A stretch of DNA of 38,466 bases, from assembly GCA_026709535.1 (NCBI GenBank), contig JAPOST010000067.1, positions 1 to 38,466 of the forward strand. The letters are read 5' to 3'. Shown here piece by piece: positions 3,321-8,679 of the stretch. The DNA comes from Rhodospirillaceae bacterium (GTDB lineage Bacteria; Pseudomonadota; Alphaproteobacteria; Bin65). The notes below the pieces were generated by a model. The model saw nothing but the letters and a program-made list of their open reading frames with translations, searched no databases and had not been told where the DNA came from. A program made the position numbers and the translations under genes. Every line of letters starts with the position of its first letter. Within the stretch, counting starts at the first letter, position 1.

Positions 3321-4766
3321 CTATGGTCGCGGCGCTTCCAGCGCAAGATCACTTGCGGGCACATCCGTTTCTTCCGGAACGGCCGGCTTGCCAGGCACCA
3401 GAGCAACGCCCTTCCCTTCGCCTTCCTCGACCAGGGGATCCTCGCTGTCGTCTTCCGTGGCCCTCATGACCCGGGGCAGCGTCGTCCAGCGAAGGGTTTC
3501 AAACGCGCCACAGTGGCCACACAATGCCGACCACTCCTGGGCCGTAGCCCCGCAATTGCTGCACAACCAGGATGGTGCGCGCGGTGCTTCTGATATCCGA
3601 CCTAGCCAATCCCGCGCCCCCGCTGCATCACCGTGCTCGGCCTGCTCCAGTTCCGCGAACAAGCGGCAGAAAGCGGCATCGGGCGTATCACCACCGCCGA
3701 TCTCCAGATGCTTGCGTGCCTGACCCCATAATTTGGCATCCAGGAGAGCGCGCGCCATCATCAATCGCGTTGCTCGCGCATCGGGGAAGAGCGCAGCCAG
3801 CGTCTCAGCCGCCTTGAGGCGGGATACGGGGTCGCTACCTCCCACCATCTGCAGGTACAATCTGGCAAGATCCGGATGGGGCTGGACCTGCCAGGCATTT
3901 TCCGCCGCCTTTCTTGCTGCACGGTCCCTGCCGTCGGCATGGAGAAGGGCAACCAGTTGCAGGATACCGGGCAGAAAGGCGGGCTCGGCCTTCAGCGCCT
4001 TGCGCGCCCGCTCCAGCGCGAGTCGCCGGTTGCCAGTCCGTTCGGCCATCAGGCTCAGCTGCACCAGCAGCGCCGCATCCCGCCGCAAGCCGTCATTCTG
4101 GGAGACAGCGTCAGCCGCCATTGCGTCGCGCAAGGTCGCCTCAGCTTCTTCCCAGCGCCTTTCCTTGATCTGAAGATGAAACAGGCGGGTGATGGCCCAG
4201 GAAGCCTGAGGATTGAGCTGGCAGGCCTTCTCGGCCAGCGCCAGAGCTGCTTCGTCATCGCCGGACTTTTCAGCCAGGATCAGCAGACCCCGCACGCCCA
4301 ACACTTCTGTTTCTCGAGCATCCAGCATCGCTTCGTAAAACTTCCGCGCGACACCAGGCTTGCCTTCCATTTGTGCAGCCTGAGCGCCGATCAGCAATGC
4401 ACCTGGCGGACGGCCAAGAACCTCGCTGGCCTTCTTCGCCTGGCGGCGCGCCTCGGCCGCGTCCCCGGCAGCGACCGCGACCATGCCTCGGGTCAGCGCC
4501 AGATATCCTTCTTCCCGCCGACGCGCAGCGCGATTGTCCAGCAGCACTTTCGGCGCGCGTCGGAACATGCGCCAGATCCGGGCGAGGGCCATGCTGACCA
4601 CCACAAGCATGACGGCCAGCAGCGACAGGACAGCCACGGATGTATCAATTCGCCAGCCGCGCCAGAGGAGGGTGATGCTGCCAGGCGTTTCCGCCAGCCA
4701 GGCGGAAATCGCGGCAACGGCCACCGCACCCAGCAGAAGGATCAGAACCTTGAGGAACAAGGACAT
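3321..4766 (-). CDS. hemY: HemY-family inner-membrane protein of tetrapyrrole synthesis
   Basis: This 481-residue protein belongs to the gammaproteobacterial/alphaproteobacterial HemY family (membrane TPR protein linked to haem synthesis, not the protoporphyrinogen oxidase of the same name). Two hydrophobic segments at the N-terminus (about residues 4-22 and 40-60) form a membrane anchor, followed by HemY_N and a run of helical, TPR-like repeats. The C-terminus has paired CxxC motifs (CSNCG…CGHCG), probably a zinc ribbon, and an acidic Pro-rich tail. The ATG at 4766 lies 19 bases after the Mic60 stop and has GGAG upstream; it is chosen over an in-frame start at 4808 that would overlap the previous gene and precede the membrane segment. 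It closes the hemD–Mic60–hemY cluster. The biochemical role of the family is not settled. Confidence 0.85.
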   Translation of the reverse strand: MSLFLKVLILLLGAVAVAAISAWLAETPGSITLLWRGWRIDTSVAVLSLLAVMLVVVSMALARIWRMFRRAPKVLLDNRAARRREEGYLALTRGMVAVAAGDAAEARRQAKKASEVLGRPPGALLIGAQAAQMEGKPGVARKFYEAMLDARETEVLGVRGLLILAEKSGDDEAALALAEKACQLNPQASWAITRLFHLQIKERRWEEAEATLRDAMAADAVSQNDGLRRDAALLVQLSLMAERTGNRRLALERARKALKAEPAFLPGILQLVALLHADGRDRAARKAAENAWQVQPHPDLARLYLQMVGGSDPVSRLKAAETLAALFPDARATRLMMARALLDAKLWGQARKHLEIGGGDTPDAAFCRLFAELEQAEHGDAAGARDWLGRISEAPRAPSWLCSNCGATAQEWSALCGHCGAFETLRWTTLPRVMRATEDDSEDPLVEEGEGKGVALVPGKPAVPEETDVPASDLALEAPRP

Positions 4767-4785
4767 GATGATGCTCGCTCCAATC

Positions 4786-6393
4786 CTACCGACTCTTGCC
4801 AAGCTCACCGGAGAGGGATGGTATCAGGGTGTCGAGGCGAGCGAGAGCAGCGTCGATGGCCGCCCGTCGGTCGGCCCTGGCCAGCCAGCCAGCGGCCGCC
4901 TTCTGCGCCAGTGCCGGCAGTTTGCGCACCAGGGCAAGGGCGGCGGCAAGATCACCATCGGCCAGTGTCACTTCAGCCTGGGCCACGAGGGCAGTCGGGC
5001 TGTCTCCCTTCACGTCCCGGCCGGTTCGGCGCACCACAACCGTGGACTTCACCTTGTTCCATACCTGGTCAACCCAGCCGTCGCCTTGAGTGTTCGCGGC
5101 AGCGGCGATCAGGTCGGATGACAGGGCATCGAACTCGCCGCGCAACACCGGCAGGGTAGGCGCACCCGTCTTGGCAGCTGGTGCCAGGTCTCTCAGTATG
5201 CCTGCGACCGCAACGTTGCTGCCTGCCATTTTCCGCGCTACGGACAAGGCGGAGTCATAGGCGCGGCCGGATACAGCCATGTTCCGGAGCTGGCCAAGAG
5301 CAACGATGGTTCCCACCTGTTCACGGGCACCAGCCTCGATCGTTTTCAATTGACTTTCCACGGCGGCAATCCGCGTGCCCAGTCCTGCAATGCTCCGGGC
5401 GGACTGCCTGGCGGCGGCGTCTCCGGGCAGTGCGGCAACCGTGGCCGACAGGGCGGCCACCCTTTCCGACAATTTCCTGATGGCGGTCTGTGTTTGCGCC
5501 GACGGCACCGCCAGGATCGCTCCATCTCCACCGGCTCCCGGGTTGGATGATCCCGCCCCTTGGAGTTCGGCAACAGCAGCTTGTAATTTCGTGACCTCGG
5601 CTGCCAGCGTCTCGTTCGAGACGACCTTCAACGTCTTGTCCAGAGTATCCAGATCGGCACGCAATTTCCTGAAGTCGTTTTGCAGCAGAGCAAAAGCCTT
5701 CCGGCCATCCACCGGCATGGACTCTTGCAGCCTTGCCACCTGATCGATAACCGAATCGAGTTGTGCAGCCAGGGTCTCCGCACGAGCTGTGGCCGTCCTG
5801 GCTCCCGCCGCCGCATCCGATATCGCTTTCTCGGATGCCGCCAGCCGCTTTTCGAGAAAGGCGGTCTGTTGGCCATCGGCATCATCGCCGAGCCAGGCAT
5901 CGCGCAGGAACCAGCCGGCGGCTGCACCCGCGATCAGGACGACAGCGAATCCGGCGCCGAAGGAAAACGCGCGACCGCGACCGTCTGACCGGCCCGCCGT
6001 CTGGCTGAGGGTTGGACCTCTTTTTTTTGACGTATCGGATTCCTTGACTCCGCTGGCCGCGCCGGAAACCTTCTCCGCCCGCACCTTCCGGGAAGCCCCT
6101 CCAGCGGCCGATGCAGCGGAAGTCCGTGACGAGGCGCCGCTGGCGCTGCCACTATCCTTCCGCCTTTCAGTATCGCTTTCTGTTGCAGTATCTGCGCCAC
6201 CCGGAGCGAAAAGGTCGATCCCTTCCAGCCTGGCGGCTTCCCGAACCTGGTCCAGGCGCTGCACGGGGATCGCGTTGCGTTCCTTCCAGCCTTGTATGGT
6301 CGTCACCGCCACGCCGAGTTTCTTGGCCATCGGGCGGATGCCCCCGAAAGCCTCAATCACCCGTGCGGCGTCATCGAGTATCGGATCATTCAT
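4786..6393 (-). CDS. Mic60/mitofilin-like membrane protein with N-terminal HTH domain
   Basis: The gene's place between hemD and hemY, one N-terminal membrane segment (about residues 142-162), a long coiled coil (about 175-330) and a conserved helical C-terminal domain match alphaproteobacterial Mic60 (COG4223). That family shapes intracytoplasmic membranes and is the ancestor of the mitochondrial MICOS subunit. The 535-residue length is in range. Unusually, residues 1-62 read as a compact helix-turn-helix (AKKLGVAVTTIQGWKERNAI) of the kind found in YdaS/Cro-like regulators, followed by a Ser/Ala/Lys-rich linker. The HTH is in the same open frame and begins at the only good ATG, so it does not look like an annotation artefact. 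Topology would put the HTH in the cytoplasm and the coiled coil in the periplasm. The DNA-binding role is inferred from the fold pattern only. Confidence 0.8.
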   Translation of the reverse strand: MNDPILDDAARVIEAFGGIRPMAKKLGVAVTTIQGWKERNAIPVQRLDQVREAARLEGIDLFAPGGADTATESDTERRKDSGSASGASSRTSAASAAGGASRKVRAEKVSGAASGVKESDTSKKRGPTLSQTAGRSDGRGRAFSFGAGFAVVLIAGAAAGWFLRDAWLGDDADGQQTAFLEKRLAASEKAISDAAAGARTATARAETLAAQLDSVIDQVARLQESMPVDGRKAFALLQNDFRKLRADLDTLDKTLKVVSNETLAAEVTKLQAAVAELQGAGSSNPGAGGDGAILAVPSAQTQTAIRKLSERVAALSATVAALPGDAAARQSARSIAGLGTRIAAVESQLKTIEAGAREQVGTIVALGQLRNMAVSGRAYDSALSVARKMAGSNVAVAGILRDLAPAAKTGAPTLPVLRGEFDALSSDLIAAAANTQGDGWVDQVWNKVKSTVVVRRTGRDVKGDSPTALVAQAEVTLADGDLAAALALVRKLPALAQKAAAGWLARADRRAAIDAALARLDTLIPSLSGELGKSR

Positions 6394-6433: not shown

Positions 6434-7180
6434 TCAGTCGGGATACTGATTGACCCTGCCTGCCGTTTGCTGGATCGCCCTTGCCATGGCGTCGGCTTTC
6501 GATGCGTCGGCAACAATGATACGCTTCCACTGAAGGCGCTTTGCGCCGCCGCGCAAGGCCGAAGCAATGGCGTCGCTGAGACACCACGCCTGCATGCCAG
6601 AAATGAAGTCTTGATGGCCAGCCGAAACCATCAACGAGCAAAATATGGCGGCATTACGCGTCGAGAAGAAAGCGGCACCAGTGGTTGTACGCGTACGCAG
6701 GGCTAATTCTGCGGATTCCGTCAGTCTTTCGACCGCCGCCGCCTGGTAGATCGGACGCTGTATGACAGTATATCCCTTGCGTCTCAGCGCGCCGGCCAGA
6801 TCGCCTGCGACATCAAGCGCGGCCGGATAGCCGATTGATCCGGCCTCCGGTAGACATTCCTGCGCAACTGTTTTTGCCAGCCCATTTACATCTGATGCAG
6901 CGTCGTGAACGGTATGGAATCCTGCTGCCCGGGCCTCGGCTGCTGTTGCAGAGCCCACGGTAAAAGCCGGAATCTGCCGCGGACCATTCAGCCGGGAATA
7001 GATTCGCACGGCGTGAGCGCTGGAGAACGCAACGGCCTGGAGGTCGGCAGGCCATTGAATGTCCTTCACGACTGGCTTGATGATCGTTACAGGGCATGGA
7101 ACCGCGTCGATACCCAAGTCCGTCAGGCATTGCGCAAAGGCCCCGGCGCCGGGCTCGGTCATGACCACCAGGACCGTCAT
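6434..7180 (-). CDS. hemD: Uroporphyrinogen-III synthase
   Basis: Predicted to close and invert ring D of hydroxymethylbilane to give uroporphyrinogen III. The 248-residue protein has the two-lobe HemD layout with weak but typical motifs: an N-terminal VLVVMTEPGAG, then AVAFSSAHAVRIYS, FTVGSATAAEARAAGF, and a C-terminal AAFFSTRNAAIFCSL. HemD diverges fast, and the downstream Mic60 and hemY genes support the call. ATG 7180 places the beta-strand at the very N-terminus as in the family; a GTG at 7201 is the alternative, and neither has a convincing Shine-Dalgarno site. The hemC gene that commonly precedes hemD in this order is not here. Confidence 0.85.
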   Translation of the reverse strand: MTVLVVMTEPGAGAFAQCLTDLGIDAVPCPVTIIKPVVKDIQWPADLQAVAFSSAHAVRIYSRLNGPRQIPAFTVGSATAAEARAAGFHTVHDAASDVNGLAKTVAQECLPEAGSIGYPAALDVAGDLAGALRRKGYTVIQRPIYQAAAVERLTESAELALRTRTTTGAAFFSTRNAAIFCSLMVSAGHQDFISGMQAWCLSDAIASALRGGAKRLQWKRIIVADASKADAMARAIQQTAGRVNQYPD

Positions 7181-7608
7181 TCCGACGTACCCCGACGCCA
7201 CAGCCTCCGCAAGGCTGCGGTCGGGAACTGCAAGCTTTCACGCTTGCCGGGCCAGGGTGCTCGGAATGAGCACCTCAAGATACAGAGCGACCGCATGTCG
7301 GCGAGTTAACGATTTCCATGAAAGTCGCAAAGGGGCGGGGTGGCGCATCACGGCGGGATGACTATCTTCCAGCCTTCTGGTCGCAACCGGATCACCGCGT
7401 CGACGCCCTGGCGCGGAACCAGCCACGGAGCAAGAGAACAGGAAGATGGCCGGGAAACATCGCAGGAACAATGGAGGTTCCACCACCCAGATTCGCAGCC
7501 GCAACCCGTCTTGGCGCTGGAGACGGGCATCAGGATTTTCCCGTGTCCACAGCCACGAAACCCATCATCGCAAGACTACCCGTTTACCAGTTCGCGAGCA
7601 GATGGACG
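7181..7608. other. Divergent intergenic region between hemD and tsaD with three small inverted repeats
   Basis: No gene is supported here. The tsaD frame stays open upstream to 7318, but that stretch resembles no TsaD N-terminus. Close to hemD there are three stem-loops in a row: CAGCCT/AGGCTG (7201-7217), CAAGC/GCTTG (7231-7246) and GGTGCTC/GAGCACC with a 5-base loop (7256-7274). They could be a leader RNA or operators. Promoters for both genes should lie here, but I could not single one out. Confidence 0.45.
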
Positions 7609-8679
7609 ATGTCTGAGGCGCCGCGCGCCTGCGCCGTGTTGGGTATCGAAACGAGTTGCGACGAGACGGCCGCCGCCGTGGTTCGTCGTCATCCGTCCGG
7701 CCTGGCCGAGATTGTCTCGGAGACCTTGCTGTCACAGGTTGAAGACCATCGTCCCTACCAGGGCGTGGTACCGGAAATCGCAGCACGCGCGCACCTGGAG
7801 CATCTGGACGGCCTGATTGACCGGACCATGACGGAAGCAGGCCTGACATTCCGCGATCTGGATGCCATCGCAGCGACCGCCGGGCCGGGCCTCATCGGCG
7901 GAGTGATGGTGGGCGCGACAACCGGCAAGGCCATTGCGGCAGCCACAGGCAAGCCGTTCGTTGCCGTCAACCATCTGGAAGGCCATGCCCTCAGCGTGCG
8001 GATGACCGATGATGTTGCCTTCCCCTACCTTCTGCTGCTGGTTTCGGGCGGACATTGCCAGCTGCTTCTCGTACGCGGCGTTGGCCACTACAGCAAACTC
8101 GGCGCCACGATCGATGACGCCGTCGGTGAAGCGTTTGACAAGGTCGCCAGGTTTCTGGACCTGGGCTATCCTGGCGGACCCGCCGTCGAGACTGCGGCCG
8201 CTCGCGCAGGCGACCCGGATCGCTTCAGCCTGCCCCGGCCCCTGCGTGGTCGAACGGGGTGCAATTTCTCCTTCTCCGGCCTGAAGACCGCCGTATTCAA
8301 CCATATCCGCGCGCTGGATCGCTTGCCGTCTCCAGCCGAGGCTGACGACATGGCGGCGGCCTTCCAGAAAGCTGTGGTCGATGTCCTGCTGGAGCGAACA
8401 AGGGCGGGCCTGTCCATGGCGCGAACGGAGGAGCCGCATCTCGCTGCTCTGGTCGTCGCCGGCGGCGTTGCCGCCAATCGCCCGATCCGGACGGCATTAA
8501 AGTCTCTGGCGACGGAGGAAGGCATTGTCCTGGTAGCGCCGCCCATTCGCTATTGTACCGACAATGCCGCAATGATCGCCTGGACCGGAGCAGAACGGCT
8601 CGCGCGCGGCATGACGGATTCGCTGGACTTCGCACCACGACCGCGCTGGCCACTCGACTCCCTGAAAAATTCCGCGTAG
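7609..8679 (+). CDS. tsaD: tRNA N6-adenosine threonylcarbamoyltransferase
   Basis: TsaD transfers the threonylcarbamoyl group from TC-AMP to A37 of tRNAs reading ANN codons, working with TsaB and TsaE. The 356-residue ASKHA-fold protein has the metal-binding pair in NHLEGH (His122 and His126), the [12 protein letters not shown] and [12 protein letters not shown] nucleotide-binding segments, and a C-terminal [12 protein letters not shown] with the third metal ligand. The start at ATG 7609 gives the normal family N-terminus ([17 protein letters not shown]). The 97 extra codons available upstream are rejected as non-homologous. It is followed 24 bases later by gpsA, a pairing frequent in alphaproteobacteria. 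Confidence 0.96.

Follow-up and report, generated by a model that had tools for sequence, protein, structure and literature searches.

Membrane-bound one-component regulators such as CadC and ToxR join a winged-helix DNA-binding head, a membrane helix and a periplasmic sensor part in one chain. RodZ, as described in the available sections of PMC6946637, has an N-terminal cytoplasmic helix-turn-helix (HTH) domain, a linker, one membrane helix and a periplasmic part, and its HTH binds MreB, not DNA. Mic60, the core component of the mitochondrial crista organiser, is considered in the excerpts available of PMC12631773 to descend from the alphaproteobacterial ancestor. A hemC-hemD-mitofilin-hemY operon lying head to head with tsaD has been described by Bell et al. 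2020 (PMC7641849), and the available portions of that paper make no mention of an HTH on the mitofilin protein.

The window analysed here (the whole 38,466-nucleotide stretch of contig JAPOST010000067.1, from the Rhodospirillaceae bacterium assembly GCA_026709535.1) contains a reverse-strand open reading frame that runs unbroken from an ATG at 6393 to a stop at 4786-4788. It encodes one protein, in which a Cro-like HTH is followed by a disordered linker, a membrane helix, a coiled coil and a mitofilin domain (Table 1), with the N-terminal head placed, by inference, on the cytoplasmic side of the membrane. The original prediction, an in-frame fusion of an HTH at about residues 1-63 to the N-terminus of Mic60, is borne out by the continuous 535-aa frame, which matches both a Mic60 profile and the NCBIfam family NF046037, the latter over residues 9-61 and so in agreement with the boundaries proposed.

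Table 1. Features of the HTH-headed Mic60 locus and its neighbours, in window coordinates.
Feature	Position	Strand	Basis
HTH-headed Mic60 (COG4223-type) gene	4786..6393	-	535 aa + stop; Pfam, NCBIfam and Mic60-profile matches
carph-isopro (NF046037) helix-turn-helix head, residues 9-61	6211..6369	-	NCBIfam score and predicted fold
Recognition helix, residues 30-39 (VTTIQGWKER)	6277..6306	-	Modelled helix and conservation
Linker, residues 62-140, predicted disordered, fast-evolving	5974..6210	-	Low pLDDT and dN
Membrane helix, residues 141-167	5893..5973	-	Modelled helix and hydrophobic stretch in sequence
Coiled-coil region, residues 168-360	5314..5892	-	Long helices in model
C-terminal mitofilin domain, residues 361-529	4807..5313	-	Mic60 profile, Pfam, 7pv1, model
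hemD (uroporphyrinogen-III synthase), upstream neighbour	6434..7201	-	PF02602 E 1.3e-26
hemY-like TPR membrane protein, downstream neighbour	3321..4808	-	PF07219 E 4.4e-23

The Mic60 profile was built from 24 C-terminal domains, the window's own included, all 24 of which match Pfam Mitofilin at E ≤ 10. For the C-terminal segment of the window protein this match has E 8.4e-4 and 18.8 bits, below the cut-off of 27.4; the profile matches the window's domain at E 1.8e-69, a value obtained with the window sequence as part of the profile, and also picks up PDB 7pv1, a solved structure of MIC60, at E 7e-10. Judged by this family profile, the assignment of the window protein to Mic60 holds. A full-length model has the membrane helix and coiled coil expected of Mic60 (helices at residues 141-167 and 175-282), with pLDDT values of 96-98 in the head, below 50 at residues 66-148 and 92-98 across most of the C-terminal domain. 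Membrane deformation is a property predicted for the protein as a Mic60.

The head scores 64.8 bits (E 5.8e-18) against NF046037, above the curated cut-off of 38; the family's name, 'carph-isopro', probably stands for carbamoyl-phosphate and isopropylmalate. Matches to Pfam P22_Cro and YdaS stay under cut-off, both for the whole protein (E 0.0014 and 0.0022) and for the head alone (E 4.5e-5 and 1.1e-4; 23.6 and 22.4 bits, with gathering cut-offs of 30.2 and 30). AlphaFold2 applied to 75 heads gave four helices (residues 9-16, 19-26, 30-39 and 44-57) with block pLDDT of 88-93 over residues 11-60. The best solved structure by VIA-align was N15 Cro bound to its operator (Z 6.8; 53 residues at rmsd 1.7), followed by other Cro proteins. 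Foldseek also ranked Cro proteins first (best E 0.038) and gave no match at E ≤ 0.001 with the head, so the likeness to Cro is based on the profile matches and on a VIA-align Z that is middling. Matches in PHROGs are to generic phage regulators (best E 1.3e-6) and say little on origin. The four-helix, Cro-like model, with no sign of a non-HTH fold, supports the Cro/YdaS-type assignment originally proposed. A literature search for 'carph-isopro' found no paper, and searches pairing Mic60/mitofilin with helix-turn-helix or COG4223 found nothing on the head, the papers returned for Mic60 with helix-turn-helix being unrelated by title. What we describe is a set of known parts in a combination that was not found described in these searches, the main alphaproteobacterial Mic60 papers lying outside them.

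The original prediction had treated the protein as a single fusion; it is instead a real, conserved form of Mic60, found widely within part of the Alphaproteobacteria. The head family and the Mic60 profile were searched in equal numbers of alphaproteobacterial genomes (289), drawn alike. The former matched at E ≤ 0.001 in 89 genomes and above its cut-off in 58, and the latter in 208. In the window, the head search gave the coordinates listed in Table 1. We fetched 80 head matches, comprising all those above cut-off (minus the window's own and duplicates) and most of those below, those omitted being mainly short frames. Among the 59 that score at least 38 bits (window excluded), 38 carry the Mic60 domain in frame, in 38 genomes. 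With the window added, head and Mic60 domain share a frame in 39 of the 208 genomes that have Mic60, across 18 family codes read from the tree, and no head was seen in the other 169. Two further head matches (L092, L116) run off contig ends, and one from a 1.2-Mb genome (L140, genome G073) has the head and a membrane helix followed by a mitofilin end that is degenerate by eye and missed by the profile.

A pattern scan of 84,980 species genomes returned 318 relatives of the head. Among the best 80 of these 318, Mic60 is present in frame in 76, three loci break off where the contig ends and L240 is a frame of 131 aa; these 80 loci were chosen by patterns inside the head, so that its invariance among them is partly by construction. 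Named headed loci include Pelagibius, Inquilinus, Rhodovibrio, Ferruginivarius and Aestuariispira, together with many Micavibrio and Rhodospirillales MAGs; the cultured strains Pelagibius litoralis DSM 21314, Inquilinus limosus DSM 16000 and Rhodovibrio sodomensis DSM 9895 are among those with a head. A record titled Mycobacterium sp. KBS0706 (L227) holds an Inquilinus-like headed Mic60 locus, and its name looks wrong. Searching genome contigs with the single window protein gave no match.

For conservation the fairer set is that of the 39 profile-selected heads. Here G17, G18, R20, A23, T32, W36, P43 and R46 are invariant, Q34, G35 and R39 are kept in 38 of 39, K37 in 37, and T or S stands at position 31 in 38, whereas positions 24, 38, 41, 44, 45, 47, 48, 51, 52, 55 and 56 vary. 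The residues of the recognition helix are thereby retained across relatives, with no loss. We take the near-constant exposed residues (R20, T32, Q34, G35, K37, R39 and R46) to form the DNA face, following standard HTH numbering; the charged residues among the constant exposed ones are basic.

On average, the head is the slowest-evolving part of the protein. Over 69 rows, picked by head patterns in a way that inflates the head's figure, mean pairwise identity is 0.623 in the head, 0.328 in the mitofilin domain, 0.199 in the coil and 0.139 in the linker; the 39-row set goes in the same direction, with a mean p-distance of 0.444 for the head versus 0.717 for the mitofilin domain. In the pair L171/L174, at dS 0.25, dN is 0.009 in the head versus 0.123 in the linker, and dN is lower in the head than in the mitofilin domain in 13 of 14 pairs, the exception being L188/L204 (0.009 vs 0.008). 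In the 39-row set, distances in the head and the mitofilin domain correlate (Mantel r 0.563, 0/999 permutations). Chance or artefact was rejected as an explanation of the fusion, given this strong purifying selection on the head and its in-frame recurrence among the best 80 named loci.

A quick tree of 133 mitofilin domains, in which 58 of 130 inner branches are open, needs 18 head changes versus 33.7 in shuffles, and its starred branches force two. Holding all 39 headed rows together raises the likelihood by 14.1 (p-AU 0.625), and a horizontal patchwork of heads was rejected because the united tree scores better. A single fusion origin is allowed by these data, not proven, with gains and losses indistinguishable on them. 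Family code f53 mixes headed (L107) and head-less (L278, L281) Mic60 and would be a good place to date a gain or loss.

The same domain is found on soluble enzymes. Pfam assignments of the 39 longer head carriers with no detected Mic60 domain (L140 among them) comprise ten HisZ/HisRS-like, six CarA, five NarJ/TorD-like, three each of CoaBC, YjeF and Zn-ADH, two LeuA and single others, some of which, such as the NarJ/TorD-like carriers, do not reach the cut-off of the head family. We noted the HTH at the N-terminus of unrelated biosynthetic enzymes, SerA and OTC included (L109, L113, L115, L130, L145, L148, L149, L156, L331, L332 and others); the SerA fusion L130 is encoded in the same genome as L140 and has a recognition helix, TTVQGWK, of the Mic60 type. 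In a phylum sample of 397 genomes, 17 score above cut-off and, outside the class, two carry the domain on LeuA. Recognition helices go largely with the class of protein: E-A-[IV]-R-K-W in 6/6 CarA, T-A-[VI]-S-G-W in 3/3 Zn-ADH, S-[AS]-V-S-N-Y in 7/10 HisZ-like proteins and T-[VI]-Q-G-W in Mic60. Since T-T-[VI]-Q-G-W also occurs in two YjeF fusions, the recognition helix is not strictly class-specific. The use of the domain on soluble enzymes points to gene-specific control more than to a membrane-specific role, and a single HTH family on many unrelated biosynthetic enzymes offers a testable case of repeated enzyme-regulator fusion.

Headed Mic60 genes keep a hem setting. Of 63 upstream frames scanned, the window's among them, 54 encode HemD (12 of 74 loci gave no frame upstream); HemY_N is downstream in 66 of 75, and hemC lies upstream, in the same orientation, in 70 of the 80 named loci (the best 80 of 318). 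In the window, hemC is absent from its usual spot upstream of hemD (7202-7610), and the hemC of this genome is on another contig (C30).

A genus alignment upstream of hemD and mic60 gave no clear operator footprint, and dyad counts upstream of mic60 (74 regions) were close to those in shuffles. Upstream of hemC (70 regions) one dyad, CTGG-N7-CCAG, was enriched, in 17/70 regions versus a shuffle maximum of 9. When it was mapped over 300 rather than 260 bases, 16 of 24 sites fell at +23, inside the hemC coding sequence, and the remaining eight lay 151-265 bases upstream, some reading as the TsaD motif LVLSQ reversed, with a TsaD match in 13 loci only and the tsaD-coding reading of the eight made by eye. 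This dyad was dropped as an operator, not disproved, its sites being mostly hemC coding and the rest taken for tsaD coding.

Mic60 frames lacking the HTH were taken from 94 of the about 169 Mic60-bearing genomes with no head, and are mostly the better-scoring Mic60-profile matches. The head profile found no credible trace in these 94 frames (best domain E 0.1, inside the mitofilin match), which usually have a low-complexity tail ahead of the membrane helix. All ten frames chosen for their fused appearance (L255, L256, L271, L287, L302, L304, L313, L317, L325 and L330) have HemD (PF02602) before the membrane helix in a single open frame. HemD may be an alternative cytoplasmic head of Mic60, an open frame alone not proving one translated protein, and the cytoplasmic end would then bear an HTH, or HemD, or a tail only. 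HemD heads would link the same end of Mic60 to heme synthesis, so that a connection of membrane architecture to heme supply could be tested in cultured strains.

We propose that the head is a gene-specific, membrane-tethered DNA-binding domain, most likely controlling its own hemC-hemD-mic60-hemY operon, a reading to which we give a probability of about 0.4. DNA binding of any kind, whether for control of the operon or as a tether, is somewhat more likely than not. The HTH would be cytoplasmic, joined through some 80 flexible residues to the membrane helix, with the periplasmic coiled coil and the mitofilin domain beyond it; the coiled coil would gather two or more heads at the cytoplasmic face, and the assembled heads would bind a Cro-type operator through the recognition surface kept within the orthologue class. 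Through control of the hem operon, Mic60 and heme supply could then track how much Mic60 the membrane contains, or its state of assembly there. Enzymes that double as repressors, such as PutA, act on this principle. Gene-specific binding is suggested because the presumed DNA face is conserved and recognition helices are mostly class-specific; the NF046037 score, the Cro fold, the hem operon context and the Mantel co-divergence also count for control of the operon. Against it stand the failure to recover an operator, the RodZ precedent, the Mic60 helix in two YjeF fusions and the location of hemC elsewhere in the window's genome. With no head seen in 169 of 208 Mic60-bearing genomes, any such regulation must be dispensable.

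By analogy with RodZ, the HTH fold could instead have been put to new use in binding protein, joining Mic60 at membrane junctions to a partner in the cytoplasm and not touching DNA. The two layouts match, HemD, itself a protein head, fills the same place in the ten chosen Mic60 frames, and the operator search gave none. However, the exposed residues on the expected DNA face (by standard HTH numbering) are near-invariant where others vary, the domain family varies by class at its recognition positions on soluble enzymes, and the RodZ Pfam families, HTH_25 and DUF4115, are absent from the 17 families matched by the window protein at E ≤ 1. Protein binding by the head seems to us doubtful.

An unlikely alternative is that many Mic60 heads together fasten the nucleoid, or a site on the chromosome, to the junctions of membrane invaginations, in the manner of a nucleoid-anchoring protein. 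A head predicted to be of DNA-binding type, attached to a membrane anchor by a long and flexible tether, would suit this role, as would a recognition surface that is near-constant over 18 family codes. The head also matches the profile of the chromosome anchor RacA, but weakly (E 0.042) and over a generic HTH stretch; moreover, the domain needs no membrane when used on soluble enzymes, and the head is missing from most Mic60-bearing genomes. Finally, it is very improbable that the head is the passive remnant of one fusion event, engaging neither DNA nor a partner and serving at most to stabilise the N-terminus or to help its translation. The AU test does not reject one origin (p 0.625) and 94/94 examined head-less Mic60s lack the head, but the head is the slowest-evolving part on average, has exposed residues among its constant ones and persists in L140, from a 1.2-Mb genome.

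Under our preferred reading, DNA-binding control of the hem operon, the sequence suggests a direct link between membrane shaping and gene control through the Mic60 head. It would be a bolder and improbable step to suppose that HTH-headed Mic60s, as a clade, anchor a defined site on the chromosome, or their own promoter, where membrane invaginations meet the membrane at their junctions, such that one protein reads the formation of crista-like membranes, the supply of heme and the position of genes; if true, this would be a direct genome-membrane link in the family ancestral to the mitochondrial crista organiser. If about one fifth of Mic60-bearing alphaproteobacterial genomes equip the protein with a strongly conserved head of DNA-binding type, bacterial Mic60 would have a cytoplasmic job that was lost from mitochondria, or never present in them.

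Compared with described systems, the window protein shares its membrane helix, coiled coil, C-terminal mitofilin domain and hem operon place with the head-less, Rhodobacter-type alphaproteobacterial Mic60 (as far as available sections of PMC7641849 describe it), but has an HTH where the N-terminus of the latter is a disordered tail or, in some genomes, HemD. With the P22, N15 and Xfaso-1 Cro repressors and YdaS the head has a common fold and weak sequence similarity; whereas these are stand-alone phage repressors, here the head sits on a membrane protein. The carph-isopro fusions of CarA, LeuA, HisZ-like, YjeF and Zn-ADH proteins have the same N-terminal HTH family, NF046037, but are soluble, with no membrane anchor and with other recognition helices in most classes. 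RodZ, in the account given in the available sections of PMC6946637, has the same order of parts, but its HTH binds MreB, and the window protein has no RodZ Pfam family among its matches. Headed Mic60 resembles RodZ, and also CadC and ToxR, in that a single chain contains its head, its membrane helix and its periplasmic part. In CadC and ToxR, however, winged-helix heads are combined with sensor domains, whereas headed Mic60 sets a Cro-type head of DNA-binding type on a membrane-shaping protein.
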